A stretch of 64,000 nucleotides of DNA from an uncultured Lachnospiraceae bacterium (GTDB lineage Bacteria > Bacillota > Clostridia > Lachnospirales > Lachnospiraceae). The DNA lies in NCBI GenBank assembly GCA_947625775.1, contig CANQPM010000002.1:62001-126000 (forward strand). Reading direction: 5' to 3'. Shown one piece after another: positions 2,910 to 54,749 of this stretch (position 1 is its first letter; every line of letters begins with the position of its first letter). Made by a program: the position numbers and the translations under genes. Under the pieces are notes generated by a model, which had not been told where the DNA came from, did not search any database, and worked only from the letters and a program-made list of their open reading frames with translations.

Positions 2910-5900
2910 ATGGGCTATCTGGAATTTTCCCACGAGAAAATTGAAGTCAAGGCAAAACCGAATGAGCTGATAGAAGGCAGCTTTATTATCCATGCCACGG
3001 ACAGATATGCGGAAGGGGAAATATACTCGTCTGATACCAGAATGCGTCTTGCCGCCAGTCAGTTCAGGGGGCAGGAGGCTGAAATCGGGTATTTTTTCGA
3101 CATCTCAAACGTCGCGGCAGGCAACACGGTAAAAGGCGAGCTTGTCATCATCAGCAATTACGGCGAATACACAATACCGTACAATATCATTGTCCAAAAA
3201 TCACTACTCCAATGCTCTCTGGGTGAAGTAAGAAACCTGTTTCATTTTACAAACCTTGCCAAAGCAGACTGGGCGGAAGCCGTAGAGCTCTTTTATATGC
3301 CTGAATTTGCCACAGTTTTGAATAAGCACGACAAAAATATGCGCTTATCATATGCAGGCTTGTCACGCAATGCAGGCAATTCCCAAAATGTCGAGGAGTT
3401 TCTGATAGAGGCAAATAAAAAAACACCAGTTATATACAGCTTCAGCATAGAAAGCCTTGCGCTTGAGGACATACAGCTGAACACATGGCGCAGCATAAAA
3501 ATAACGCGTGAAGGCTGGGGCTATACATATCTGCGTGTACGCGCGGAGGGGGAATTCATAAAACTTCCGTATGAGATAATTGACAATGGCAGCTTTAATG
3601 AAAACATATGTGATTTTAAAATCGAGATAGATGCTACGCGGCTGCATAAGGGATTAAATAACGGCAGTGTTGTTTTTGCGGACGCAAGCAGGGACTATGT
3701 CATTCCGATTGATATAATGATGGAGCGCGTAAGCGAGCGCCATGACAGGGAAAAACAAAAAGAACAGCTGCTATTAAAACTTACCCGATACTACATAGAT
3801 ATGCGCTACAATAAATATCCGCGCGAGCAGCTCATTGATAAAATAACATGCGAAATGGAAATCCTGAAGGAGCTTGACGAGGACAATCCGCTCACAGGGC
3901 TTTTGCAGGTGCAGCTGTTAATTGACAAGGAGCGGTTCAACGAGGCAAAATGGCTGCTTGACAATGTGCGCCAGCAGGCATATTCCGCAGGCGCGGAGTC
4001 GGTGGAATACTGTTATTACCTCTACCTTACCACACTGTACAACAGAGATGATGACTATATACAGGAGGTGCTTGGCGTTATCGAAAACGCCTACGCGAAC
4101 AATCCGACGCAGTGGAAGCTTGCATGGTTTATGATTGATTTGGACGAGAGCTTTTCGCGGCGCGGCGATTACAAGTGGCAGTTTATAGAGGAGCTTTTCA
4201 AGGCAGGCTGTTCAAGCCCCGTGATAATGTGCGAGGCGGTGCTCTTGCTGCACGAAAATCCCACATTTTTGCTTAAGCTTGACGCTTTTGAGGAGAATGT
4301 GCTCTGGCATGCCGCAAAGTACGGCGTTTTGACCTCAAATCTCATAGAACAGCTTCAATATCTTGCAGCGCGCAAAAAAGAATATTCGCCCCTCTTGTAC
4401 CGCATTTTGTGCGAGGCGTATGATGTGGGGCAATCGCCCCAGACAGTTGCCGAGATATGCCGCCAGCTCATACTGGGCGATAAGAAGGGCGCGGAATTTT
4501 TCGGCTGGTATGCGCTTGGGGTGGAGTATTCCGTGAGAGTGACGAAGCTTTATGAATACTATATGATGTCGATTGAATTTGACAAATACGGCGGGATAAT
4601 GGATAAAAACATAGAGATACCGCGCATGGTGCTGATGTATTTTGCGTACCAGAGCACGCTGGACTATGGGCTGAATGCTTTTTTGTACGCATATGTCGTA
4701 AAAAATGCCGACAAATATCCTGATTTGGAGCAGAGCTACCACATAGCGATTGAGCGGTTTGTGCTTGATTCCATAAAGTCGGGGCGCATAAATGAAAACA
4801 TAGCGTATCTTTACCAGAATGTGATTACTCCGCGCATGGTATCTGACGATACAGCGTATGCGCTGACGCCGCTTTTATTTATGCACAGAATATATGTGGA
4901 CAGTCCGCGTGTGAAAAATGTGGTGATAATCCACGAGAAGCTGAGCGGGGAGAGCGCATACCCGATAACCGATAATGTCTGCATGCTCCCGATTTACGGA
5001 AATGAGTACAAGCTTTTTCTGCAGGACGACGAGGGAAACCGCTTTACAAAAAGCATAGCGTATGAAAACGAGCAGCTTATGCAGCCTGACAGATTTGTAT
5101 CAAACGTGAGCGGATATATGAAAGGGCGGCTAAGCTTTGACATATATCTGTGCGAGCTTGAAAAAAATTATATCACTATTACAGAGGATAATTTCAGGCG
5201 TTTTAAGAGTCTTGCGGAGTCTGAGCAGGTCGTGGAGGACTTCAAAAAGGAAATACGCACAAAGCTGATGCGGTTTTACTATGATAATGACAGGATAGGC
5301 GAGCTTGACGCGTTTCTCGAGGACATTGAGGCGGGCGGAATGGAGGCGCAGGAGAGGGCGGAGGTCATACGCTATCTTGTGTCGCGCGGCATGTTTGACA
5401 AGGCATATGCGTGGTTAAGGCTTTATGGCGTTTCAGGCGTAAATATCAAGGTGCTTGCGAGGCTCATAAGCAAGCGCATAGTCATGAAACCTGATGAATA
5501 TGACGAATTTCTTGTAGCGGTATCTTACCATGTATATAAAAACATGCGTTATGATGAAAATATCCTGTGTTATTTAATGCGGCATTATGAGGGAAGGGTA
5601 TCGGAGTTAAAGGATTTATGGCGCGTGGCGCTTGAGCTTGAGCTTGACACAAGGGATATAATGCACCGCATTTTAAAGCAAATCAGGTACACGGGCGCAA
5701 ACCTGCAGGAAAAAGATGAAATTCTGCTTGCGTATGCCGAATGTGACGGCTGTGACACAGAGCTTGTGAATGACCTGCTAAAGAGCGCGGCATATGACTA
5801 TTTTGTGTATGACGCGATTGTTGACGCGGGGATTTTTGACAGGCTTTATGAGGCGTATATGTCGGGGGCGGCTGATGAGGCGTACAAGCTTGCGATACTG

Positions 5901-29050: not shown

Positions 29051-29320
29051 TAAAGACAACACAGTGACGAGACGAGTAAAATATTGCAGCGTACCAGAGA
29101 GGGATGCATGGCGTGTCTGTGCGATATGGCATAAGGCGTGCCGCGGCTGAAAGCGTCCTTGCGCAAGATATTTGAAAACCACCTCTGAGCGGCTTTAATC
29201 AAGCCCGTTGATTACGTTACAATCATGAGTGGTCTGCGCATTAGTTTCAGCGCAGGCAAGCAGGGTGGAACCGCGGTAATTCGTCCCATGCATTACGAAA
29301 AGTAGTGTATGGGATTTTTT
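29051..29320 (+). ncRNA. T-box riboswitch, threonine type
   Basis: The T-box sequence AGGGTGGAACCGCGG at 29262-29276 is unmistakable. Stem I begins with AGTGACGAGACGAGTA, and the specifier region TTTGAAAACCACCTCTGAGC contains ACC at 29178-29180 (or 29181-29183), a threonine codon. It ends in a terminator stem (CCCATGCATTAC at 29285 with GTAGTGTATGGG, then a T run to 29320) that would be replaced by the antiterminator when uncharged tRNA-Thr binds. The gene it controls is thrS, which agrees with the specifier. Confidence 0.96.
29285..29320 (+). terminator. T-box-controlled terminator ahead of thrS
   Basis: CCCATGCATTAC pairs with GTAGTGTATGGG, with G-U pairs, followed by a T run; its 5' arm borders the TTCGTCCC segment that can pair with the T-box bulge. 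Confidence 0.9.
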
Positions 29321-52060: not shown

Positions 52061-52204
52061 GATAAAACGCGAAAAACGTGCAAAACCAGCTGGCAAAACA
52101 AATAGAGCAGATATGATAAAATGGCAAAGCAGCGCCAGGCAAACGATGCATTAAGAAAGCCTCTATGGAGAGAATTACACTGAAAGATAAAAAAAATCAA
52201 CGAA

Positions 52205-52224
52205 AATGATTAATTTTAATCATT
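52205..52224 (+). promoter_or_regulatory. Operator-like palindrome at the leuA-araC promoter
   Basis: AATGATTAA and TTAATCATT, a perfect 9-bp inverted repeat with a 2-base centre, lie immediately at the -35 element of the next gene. The position suits a transcription-factor site, possibly for the AraC domain of the gene product itself (inference). Confidence 0.5.
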
Positions 52225-52251
52225 GCTTTGCGGCGCAATATATGTTAAATT
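52223..52251 (+). promoter_or_regulatory. Possible promoter for the leuA-araC fusion gene
   Basis: TTGCTT at 52223-52228 and TAAATT at 52246-52251, spacer 17 bp, with TG one base before the -10. Moderate match. Confidence 0.45.
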
Positions 52252-52295
52252 AACTACTAAACTACCAAGGCATAATGAAAGGGGAAAATAAAAAT

Positions 52296-54284
52296 ATGAA
52301 GAACGCAGATAAATATCAGAAGGCATATTTTATGCCGCCTGAGATGACATATGACTGGGTGAAAAAGGACGCCATAGACGCGCCGCCCATATGGTGCTCA
52401 GTCGATTTAAGAGACGGCAATCAGGCGCTTATTGAGCCTATGAGCCTTGATGAAAAGCTGGAATTTTTCCAGATGCTTATAGACATAGGCTTTAAGGAGA
52501 TTGAGGTCGGCTTTCCTGCCGCGTCAGACACGGAATATGAATTTATGCGCGCGCTTATAGAGCGCAATATGATACCAGATGATGTCACGGTACAGGTGCT
52601 TACGCAGGCAAGGGAGCACATCATCAGAAAGACCTTTGAGGCGATAAAGGGAGCGCCCAAGGCGGTTATACATCTCTATAATTCAACCTCAGTGGCGCAG
52701 CGCGAGCAGGTATTCAAAAAAGACAAGGAAGCAATCAAAAAGCTTGCGGTGGACGGGGCGGAGCTTTTAAAGACGCTTGCGGACGAGACAGACGGGAATT
52801 TTTCATTTGAGTACAGCCCTGAAAGCTTTCACGGCACTGAGGTAGAGTATGCGCTTGAGGTGTGCAACGCCGTGCTGGACGTATGGCAGCCGAGCGCAGA
52901 TAGAAAGGCTATCATAAACATTCCCGCTACGGTTGAGACGGCTATGCCCCATGTTTTCGCGTCGCAGATAGAGTATCTTAGCAAAAACCTCAAATACAGG
53001 GAAAATGTAGTGCTGAGCATACACCCGCACAACGACAGGGGCTGCGGCGTAAGCGATACGGAGCTTGGCGTGCTTGCGGGCGCGGACCGTGTGGAGGGTA
53101 CTTTGTTTGGCAACGGCGAGCGCACGGGAAATGTTGACATCATCACGGTGGCAATGAATATGTTTTCATACGGTGTTGATCCGAAGCTTGATTTTTCAAA
53201 TATGCCCGAAATCCGCAGAAAATATGAAAAGCTTACAAGAATGACAGTCCATGACAGGCAGCCGTATGCGGGCGACCTTGTTTTTACGGCGTTTTCAGGC
53301 TCTCACCAGGACGCTATTGCAAAGGGTATGCAGTGGCGAGAGGACCGCAAGAGCAATAAATGGACAGTACCGTATCTTCCTATAGATCCGAAGGATGTCG
53401 GTAGAAATTATGACGCCGATGTCATACGCATAAACAGCCAGTCTGGCAAGGGTGGCGTGAACTACATATTAAAGCAGAATTTTGGCATATCGCTTCCCGA
53501 TGCTATGCGAGAGGAGGTGGGCTATCTTGTAAAGAGTGTGTCAGATCAGGAGCACAAGGAGCTTTCGCCTAAGTGGGTTTATGATATTTTCTGTGAGAAT
53601 TACGTGGACATTATGCCGCATTTCCAGATAAATGAGTGCCACTTTAAGCAGGTGGACGGCATAATGGCGGAGGCGACCATAACCTGCGGCGACAAAAGGA
53701 CAGTGGTTGACGCAAACGGCAACGGGCGCCTTGACGCGGTGAGCAACACGATAAAGCAGTATTTTGGCATAAGCTACCAGCTTTCGGATTATGAAGAACA
53801 CGCGCTTACAAAGGGCTCGTCATCAAAGGCAATCGCATATGTGAGTGTGACATGCAATGGCAGGAAATACTGGGGCGTGGGCTTTGACGATGATATAATC
53901 AAGGCATCGATACATGCGCTGTGCGTCAGCGTCAACAAGCTTCCCGAGCTGCAGAGCAGCGAGGCGTGCAATGATGAGCGCCTGATGGACATTATGAATT
54001 ACATGCAGTCGCGCTACCGTGAGGTTACGCTCAGTGAGCTTGCGGAGCATTTTCACCTGTCAGAGCCTTACGTGAGCAAGTATATACACGAAAAGTCTGG
54101 AAAAACCTTCAACGACATTCTGACTAATATCAGATTGAAAAAGGCTAAGACGCTTCTCAGGAACGGTAGTATGACTGTTGAAAATATAGCCGATGCGGTC
54201 GGCTACCCAAATGTCGAGCATTTCAACCGTACATTCAAAAAAAAGCTCGGAATGACGCCTGTCCAGTACCGCAATGAAGGCTGA
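52296..54284 (+). CDS. leuA: 2-isopropylmalate synthase fused to an AraC-type DNA-binding domain
   Basis: First committed enzyme of leucine synthesis, condensing 2-oxoisovalerate with acetyl-CoA, here with an extra C-terminal regulator domain. Residues about 1-420 are the HMGL-like barrel: [12 protein letters not shown] at the active site and [11 protein letters not shown] for the metal ligands. Residues about 430-555 are the LeuA dimer/leucine-binding domain ([24 protein letters not shown]). Residues 560-662 read as two helix-turn-helix units of the AraC type: [20 protein letters not shown] then [20 protein letters not shown], and end [12 protein letters not shown] as AraC domains do. The frame is unbroken across the junction. 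The start at 52296 follows AAAGGGGA by about 10 bases. Leucine-responsive DNA binding is inferred from the architecture. Confidence 0.93.
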
Positions 54285-54456
54285 ATCCCCGCTGATGGCA
54301 AGGTAAAGAGGCATATTGGCAATATAGAAAATAAAGGCATTTATAAAATTTATTAATCTATAGACAAATCTGAATAAATGTGGTAATATTACAAACGTGA
54401 TGTAACAATTTTGTAATATATCACGCCAGAAATACGCCGTCATTTGCGTTTTTCTA

Positions 54457-54584
54457 TGTGAGATTTAGAAATTCTTCGCGAAACGCCCATTGGCGTGAGT
54501 GATTAGAATTTCTTCTCATATGTGAGACTTAGAAATTCTTCGCGAAACGCCCATTGGCGTGAGTGATTAGAATTTCTTCTCACA
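54457..54584 (+). repeat. Tandem 64-bp palindromic repeats ahead of tRNA-Arg
   Basis: Two copies (from 54457 and 54521) that are nearly identical. Each runs TGTGAGA(T/C)TTAGAAATTC ... GAATTTCTTCTCA and can fold into a long stem closed by TGTGAGA/TCTCACA and AGAAATTC/GAATTTCT, with an inner hairpin ACGCC-CATT-GGCGT. They end 4-5 bases before the tRNA. Upstream 54285-54456 shows no gene. Confidence 0.85.
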
Positions 54585-54588
54585 TTTT

Positions 54589-54660
54589 GCACCCGTAGTC
54601 TAATGGATAGAACGAAGGCCTCCGACGCCTTTAATGCAGGTTCGATTCCTGTCGGGTGCA
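54589..54660 (+). tRNA. tRNA-Arg, anticodon CCG
   Basis: Acceptor arms GCACCCG and CGGGTGC pair fully. The anticodon stem AAGGC/GCCTT holds the loop CTCCGAC, giving anticodon CCG (reads CGG, Arg). The T-arm GCAGG-TTCGATT-CCTGT is standard. The 3' CCA is not encoded. Confidence 0.95.
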
Positions 54661-54749
54661 TTCCTTATTTTATATGTATGATTTTTATTCATGACAATAG
54701 AAAGCCCGCAAAGCGTGTTTTTTATTGTTTGCAAAGAACGGAGCAGAAA

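Follow-up and report, generated by a model that had tools for sequence, protein, structure and literature searches.

A 2-isopropylmalate synthase fused to an AraC-type DNA-binding domain in Lachnospiraceae, with a conserved candidate operator at its own promoter

Results and Discussion

The leuA-araC fusion gene and its product

The window examined in this study (the whole 64,000-nucleotide stretch of DNA analysed, from an uncultured Lachnospiraceae bacterium) contains a leuA-araC fusion gene on the forward strand at positions 52296..54284, a single open frame of 662 codons plus stop with full-length homologues in other genomes. The frame is open from a first ATG at 52275 through to 54284; relatives share the start at 52296, ahead of which a ribosome-binding site, AAAGGGGA, was read from the sequence (52278..52285, +). 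All five Pfam domain matches of the product, LeuA-AraC, score above the curated cut-offs. These comprise an HMGL-like catalytic barrel with conserved catalytic residues (residues 32-307; 52389..53216, +; E 3.5e-71), the post-catalytic domain IPMS_D2 (residues 327-393; 53274..53474, +; E 1.1e-34), the allosteric, dimerising and leucine-binding LeuA_dimer domain, whose leucine-site residues are largely conserved (residues 424-549; 53565..53942, +; E 2.2e-23), and two matches within the AraC part, HTH_18 (residues 582-660; E 3.1e-21, 75.9 bits against a cut-off of 33.6) and HTH_AraC (residues 622-660; E 8.7e-15, 54.9 bits against 26.6). Beyond a variable linker (residues 550-560; 53943..53975, +), which shows the highest mean entropy among seven stretches compared, Pfam, conservation and a predicted structural model together place an AraC-type DNA-binding domain of seven helices and two helix-turn-helix (HTH) units at residues 561-661 (53976..54278, +). 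Two of its helices, at residues 590-601 (54063..54098, +) and 640-651 (54213..54248, +), with limits taken from the predicted model, are highly conserved among 58 fused proteins; following the AraC family, we take them to be the recognition helices of the first and second HTH, respectively. An earlier note on this DNA, made from the letters and open reading frames alone, had described a complete LeuA continuing in frame into about 100 residues with both HTH units of an AraC regulator, and both the reading frame and the domain matches bear this out.

The LeuA part is identified as 2-isopropylmalate synthase (IPMS) by the NCBIfam model NF002991 (806.6 bits against a cut-off of 455); among the NCBIfam matches listed (25 of 49), each model covers either the enzyme or the AraC part and none covers both. 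The other three HMGL-like proteins of the genome, scanned over their HMGL regions, fall below the cut-off of every IPMS model, which leaves the fusion as the only IPMS found in this genome. One of these three is apparently related to homocitrate synthase and another to aldolases, and the third appears to be a carboxylase subunit.

The best match in the PDB is the LeuA of Mycobacterium tuberculosis (1sr9, 3fig; E 6.8e-157, over LeuA-AraC residues 26-519), a chain of 644 residues whose last, weak match lies at LeuA-AraC residue 548 and which has no counterpart of the AraC domain. Functional positions were transferred to LeuA-AraC through the alignment to this structure match, and the two proteins share the catalytic residues and, largely, those of the leucine site. 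Six of the seven positions that we take to be catalytic or metal-binding in M. tuberculosis (R80, D81, E218, H285, H287, H379 and Y410) are kept in 154 of 154 fused proteins, and E218, which is E176 here, is invariant in 31 of 31. Among the residues presumably responsible for leucine feedback in M. tuberculosis (G531, G533, L535, A536, Y554 and A558), the positions of G531, G533 and Y554 are kept in all 154 fused proteins and that of L535 in 149, while the position of A558 is alanine or serine in 152. The position of A536 is aspartate in 153 of the 154 fused proteins and likewise in 16 of 20 unfused ones.

An AlphaFold2 model built from 31 fused sequences has a mean pLDDT of 75.8 and a pTM of 0.51. 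Its AraC part consists of seven helices (residues 561-572, 579-585, 590-601, 605-623, 628-635, 640-651 and 655-661) that form two HTH units with a long helix between them. Confidence is low at residues 556-560 (pLDDT below 50), 321-345, 352-386 and some short stretches, so that the model is silent on the arrangement of the domains.

Distribution and evolution of the fusion

The same fusion was sought in related genomes and proved to be widespread. In the genus, 31 of the 38 genomes, the source genome included, carry a full fusion (match to residue 660 or beyond; 72-100% identity), and full, stop-free fusions (to residue 659 or beyond) occur in at least 68 of 299 family genomes sampled at about one per genus, a hand count among the matches listed (at least 796 bits) in which a distant fusion could be missed. 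Within the genus, one further genome (G026) carries the protein split in two pieces on two contigs, three (G003, G008, G024) give no match to LeuA-AraC, and three (G012, G015, G023) encode just a LeuA of 51-52% identity that lacks the AraC part. All 11 full fusions listed in an order-level sample of 196 genomes belong to the same family, and one of the four listed in a phylum-level sample of 299 genomes (G797) comes from another family; at this locus (L309) the fusion is accompanied by the operator described below. Roseburia faecis M72, Petralouisia muris, Falcatimonas sp. MSJ-15 and Ruminobacter amylophilus DSM 1361 are among the named bacteria that carry the fusion in full.

Shortened forms were also observed in the family sample. 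In G200 the fusion frame ends at residue 584, and in G098 a frameshift in the linker breaks the fusion, so that LeuA ends at residue 555 and the AraC domain continues intact in another frame. The remaining matches listed end at about residues 547-565, apart from five (G095, G139, G177, G245 and G295) that reach residues 576-623 by reading through one to three stop codons; these were not counted as fusions and represent either decayed fusions or chance extensions. The operator of G098 (L161) has been kept despite the frameshift between its LeuA and AraC frames.

These data bear on the simplest objection to the fusion, namely that a sequencing or assembly error has joined two genes. The frameshift in G098, either a natural split or an assembly error, separates an intact AraC domain from LeuA in a relative; no sign of an error was found for the window itself, and dozens of genomes share the fusion, among them those of the isolates Roseburia faecis M72 and Ruminobacter amylophilus DSM 1361. 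A joining error is so improbable as to be negligible, and the artefact was ruled out by the occurrence of the fusion in the genus, the family and the named isolates. The earlier note had also allowed that homologues might all end near residue 555, which is not the case, since dozens of them match to residue 659 or beyond.

Strong purifying selection acts on both halves of the protein, to much the same degree on the AraC part as on LeuA. Across 13 pairs, many of them with dS near saturation, dN/dS of the AraC part ranges from 0.003 to 0.036 in the nine pairs with a finite value above zero (it is 0 in one pair and non-finite in three), and that of LeuA from 0.004 to 0.038 in eleven pairs. In one pair (L005-L008), in which dS is saturated and the AraC ratio non-finite, dN is 0.163 for the AraC part and 0.056 for LeuA. 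The mean share of the commonest residue among 58 fused proteins is 0.80 in HTH_18, 0.81 in the LeuA dimer domain and 0.55 in the linker (residues 550-560). The full-length relatives and the low dN/dS of the AraC part indicate that the fusion frame is real, old and selected, and with its catalytic residues intact, its leucine-site residues largely intact and its DNA-binding domain well conserved, LeuA-AraC stands as the genuine enzyme-regulator fusion that the earlier note had proposed.

On a quick LeuA tree from which identical rows had been left out, the presence of the fusion requires nine changes, five of them forced, a pattern that fits, but does not prove, a single gain followed by several losses. 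One locus labelled as Muribaculaceae (Bacteroidota; L219) carries a LeuA that groups with Agathobacter, so this label is probably wrong or the contig misplaced.

A conserved candidate operator upstream of the fusion gene

Phylogenetic footprinting revealed a putative operator upstream of the gene, TAAAAAAAATCAACGAAAATGATTAATTTTAATCATT (52188..52224, core 52196-52224, +); neither this element nor the idea that the gene is its own visible target formed part of the first reading of this DNA. The site reads ATCAAnnnnnnTGATTAAnnTTAATCA, with TTAAAA just before it, and from its positional profile it can be read as two direct half-sites, of the types TTAAAAnAnATCA and TTAAATTTAATCA, spaced 23 bp apart. 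Operator dyads were found with no prior model in approximately 26-32 of 56 fused upstream regions, compared to about one in shuffled sequences. With a position weight matrix (PWM), scores above 15 were obtained at 77 of 96 training fused loci and at 48 of the 49 fused loci held out, but at none of 20 unfused leuA loci, where the held-out loci are close relatives by AraC domain (the best 80 of 482 confirmed AraC-domain matches minus the training set) and the unfused loci are the 20 most similar among the matches listed in the family sample. Two loci with less than 300 nt of upstream sequence (L014, L061) were left out of the scoring. The best score among 348 shuffled sequences was 5.4; three of the 20 unfused loci scored weakly above the 99% shuffle level, with a best score of 9.5. 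Since both the PWM and the search patterns used below were built from fused loci, match rates among carriers are not independent evidence.

Nineteen of the 96 training loci have no site above 15 within 1000 nt; several of these look diverged and some show none. In two loci (L011, L016) the site is displaced to 1330-1336 nt upstream. In L011, an acetyltransferase-like gene separates the operator from the fused leuA, an arrangement recorded at L189 (2295-3601; G019).

Promoter geometry and the direction of control

The operator stands in a fixed relation to a candidate promoter. An extended -10 element, TGTTAAATT (52243..52251, hexamer 52246-52251, +), begins 18 nt after the operator, and a weak -35 hexamer, TTGCTT (52223..52228, +), placed by the 17-nt spacing and by consensus match alone, has as its first two bases the last two of the operator. 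Across 124 distinct promoters (site score above 15; reduced from 153 by removing duplicates), an extended -10 of the form TGnTAnnnT follows the site at an offset of exactly 18 nt in 107, and no other offset occurs more than eight times; the PWM itself excluded the -10 part. Compared with the consensus TTGACA, the -35 matches at three or fewer of six positions in 73 promoters, at four in 49, at five in two and at six in none. The -10 matches at least four of six consensus positions in 116 of the 124, where the TA...T part was already contained in the search pattern. A simple promoter scan of the window, with a rule of four matching -35 positions, did not list the proposed promoter, whose -35 matches at three.

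A fixed spacing, a weak -35 and an extended -10 are in keeping with an activator that makes contact with RNA polymerase in the manner of class II. Class II AraC-type activators bind a site that adjoins or overlaps the -35 and contact RNA polymerase. As far as the sequence can tell, a direct-repeat site at the -35 with fixed spacing is present here; the separate N-terminal, cupin-like ligand-binding domain of this class is absent, and the N-terminal part is LeuA instead.

It is also possible that the protein represses its own gene, with leucine acting as corepressor and leucine-bound LeuA-AraC lying over the -35, where it would keep RNA polymerase out. Amino acid pathways are commonly subject to end-product corepression, and the two-base overlap of operator and -35 is compatible with such a block. 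In addition, a second copy of the site was scored in 15 of the 124 promoters, in 11 of them 58-59 nt past the start of the first site and thus just downstream of the -10, and relatives within one genus (among L270-L276) have more copies. Copies in this position suggest that repression occurs as well, and they may repress or tune expression. However, 107 of the 124 promoters keep the same distance between site and -10, and the -35 is weak, features that an activator needs and a repressor does not, and a scored second copy is found in just 15; repression as the principal mode is, in our assessment, unlikely. Activation of its own promoter remains the reading that we carry forward.

Association of the operator with the fusion

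In the source genome, a search with up to three mismatches returned two matches, an exact one at the fusion gene and one with three mismatches, and the reversed-pattern control also returned two; the operator at the fusion gene is the sole clear copy. At up to two mismatches, four fusion-free genomes of the genus (G003, G015, G023, G024) show no operator match, and a fifth (G012) shows one weak match; a sixth (G008) has a site approximately 10 nt from a contig end. One genome (G036) has the fusion, yet no operator match at two mismatches, and a few two-mismatch matches in the genus lie on contigs other than that of leuA.

In the family sample, a shorter pattern with at most one mismatch was found in 17 of 70 carriers and in none of 229 other genomes; at two mismatches it also matched 22 of the 229 non-carriers, so weak matches to the pattern mean little. 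A longer pattern, TAAAANNNATCAANNNAANTGATTAA, with at most one mismatch, matched 43 of the 70 carriers but only two of the 229 others (Fisher p 7e-31), and in 41 of the 43 carriers it matched at leuA. Because the patterns were derived from carriers, the absence of matches elsewhere is the telling part of this comparison. One of the two non-carriers matched, G115, has an unfused leuA with the site 145 nt upstream; on the quick tree this leuA is the sister of a fused one (support 97), a position that makes loss of the AraC domain, with the site left as a relict, likely.

Taken at face value, these patterns are also open to the explanation that another regulator owns the operator and that the fused AraC domain has a different DNA target or none. 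Covariation between recognition-helix residues and operator letters gave no clear signal, as clade effects were dominant and the helix positions did not stand out, and the unfused leuA of G115 keeps its site. On the other hand, the sites track the fusion across the family (43/70 versus 2/229), the case of G115 fits a lost domain and a relict site, the site also stands beside the fusion in Ruminobacter (see below), and AraC-type sites usually take the form of a direct repeat close to the -35; foreign ownership of the operator is accordingly rated as distinctly improbable. The AraC domain of the fusion probably controls its own gene through an operator kept in many related genera.

A regulon beyond leuA was considered and rejected at this sensitivity: genome-wide, TAAAANNNATCAANNNAANTGATTAA matched away from leuA five times (twice in G243, once each in G208, G238 and G134) compared to four times for the reversed pattern, and no wider regulon is visible at a rate so close to that of the control. 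In G073, in which the fusion lies elsewhere, a near-perfect operator palindrome occurs upstream of ilvN-ilvC as read from the open reading frames (L182, approximately 3781-3817, on contig 75); it is a possible second target or may be due to chance.

The fusion in Ruminobacter

Outside the phylum, the fusion and its operator occur together in the gammaproteobacterium Ruminobacter, both in the type strain, R. amylophilus (L263, 1737-3869), and in a separate metagenome-assembled genome (L258, 1869-3869). The site scores 24.0, and the -10 is one base nearer than usual. As read from the open reading frames, both fusions are followed by similar transporter and NudC-like genes, and both genomes also encode a 28-29% identical LeuA-type protein. 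Together these observations point to horizontal transfer, and the fusion was apparently acquired together with its operator.

Proposed mode of action

We infer that the AraC-type domain binds this operator, that binding activates rather than represses, and that leucine is the signal. Under this proposal, a LeuA dimer would make 2-isopropylmalate and at the same time present two AraC-type domains, each tethered by a short and flexible linker. Under leucine scarcity, it would bind both direct half-sites of its one operator and, from a position just ahead of the weak -35 and the good extended -10, would activate its own promoter as class II AraC-type activators do. Leucine bound in the allosteric domain would change the shape of the dimer, lowering catalysis and ending the activation of the gene; a single leucine site would in this way set both the activity and the amount of the committed enzyme of the pathway. 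That LeuA-AraC is such a self-regulating "trigger enzyme", a class II-type activator of its own promoter silenced by leucine, appears reasonably likely to us. The case for leucine as the signal is that the leucine domain is also the dimerising domain and adjoins the DNA-binding domain, together with the logic of the pathway.

The same architecture could serve a different input. The AraC domain may bind the operator and respond to catalysis or substrates (ketoisovalerate, acetyl-CoA) rather than to leucine, or it may act constitutively. The active site and the leucine site are equally conserved, nothing computed here separates the two signals, and the position of M. tuberculosis A536 is aspartate in these proteins; against this, it is the dimerising, allosteric leucine domain that joins the DNA-binding domain directly. 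We regard substrate sensing or constitutive action as a serious possibility that is nevertheless on the unlikely side. Since the direction of control and the identity of the signal are separate questions, the probabilities assigned to the alternatives overlap and do not sum to one. With leucine retained as the preferred signal, LeuA-AraC would form a minimal metabolic control loop of one protein and one site at a fixed promoter geometry, and the gating of DNA binding by a metabolite-binding enzyme would become accessible in a system of a single protein, a DNA fragment and leucine.

Comparison with known regulators

LeuA-AraC has the defining parts of both an IPMS and an AraC-type DNA-binding domain and is probably of the trigger-enzyme kind, without the usual AraC sensor. 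The AraC/XylS-family activators include AraC, RhaS, XylS and MelR. Like these, LeuA-AraC has seven C-terminal helices with two HTH units and half-sites by the -35 in class II geometry; unlike them, its sensor and dimerisation domain is a whole enzyme rather than a cupin or similar domain. Its half-sites are 23 bp apart, compared to approximately 21 bp for araI1-araI2.

To our knowledge, few enzymes act as their own transcription factor, and the best known of these are repressors. NadR is a trigger enzyme with its own DNA-binding domain. PutA and BirA are described as enzymes with their own DNA-binding domains that repress genes of their own pathways (PMC6978683). LeuA-AraC would share with PutA, BirA and NadR the combination of an enzyme and a regulator of its own pathway genes in one polypeptide; it differs from the repressors PutA and BirA in that it is a biosynthetic enzyme of a feedback-inhibited family, its own gene is its sole visible target, and activation is the likelier mode. 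A further comparison is offered by Ada of Escherichia coli, which joins an AraC-type domain and an enzyme in one autoregulated chain. Ada acts in DNA repair and is switched by covalent self-methylation, whereas LeuA-AraC would be switched by an allosteric metabolite in biosynthesis. No description of a LeuA-AraC fusion was found in the literature searched, in which subscription papers were mostly beyond reach. The fusion occurs in gut and rumen bacteria, including Roseburia faecis and many Lachnospiraceae genomes.

T-box elements and other RNA neighbours

A second form of leucine control is found at the same gene in other lineages. T-boxes read uncharged tRNA at the RNA level, and a leucine T-box (Rfam RF00230), which likewise places leuA under the control of leucine status, is indicated by its signature upstream of 27 of the 96 loci with the fusion and 14 of the 20 without it; among these 41 loci the specifier is CTC in 27 and CTG in five. 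Covariance models score above the gathering score for the T-box in eight of ten loci examined, L005 and L025 being the two that do not. The source genome has eight T-box matches, four of them above the gathering score, and none is upstream of leuA, so in this lineage leuA may have no leucine-related control other than the operator. In lineages with both elements, the T-box and the operator stand in series. Control by protein-DNA contact would exist beside, and perhaps instead of, the RNA T-box at the same gene. We rate as about evenly balanced the broader proposal that one protein closes the whole leucine loop through one leucine domain and a sole target promoter, and that this arrangement arose in Lachnospiraceae, may replace the T-box and moved with its operator to Ruminobacter.

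Several other RNA elements were noted. One of the eight T-box matches of the source genome lies in the window at 29055-29291 (91055-91291 of the contig) and, at 69.2 bits, is below the gathering score. At an unfused leuA (L162), a Clostridiales-1 RNA (RF01699; 2458-2616, minus strand) adjoins the T-box (2663-2914). Finally, two tandem 64-nt copies that are 98% alike occupy positions 54455-54582 of the window, directly before a tRNA-Arg(ccg) gene at 54588-54661.
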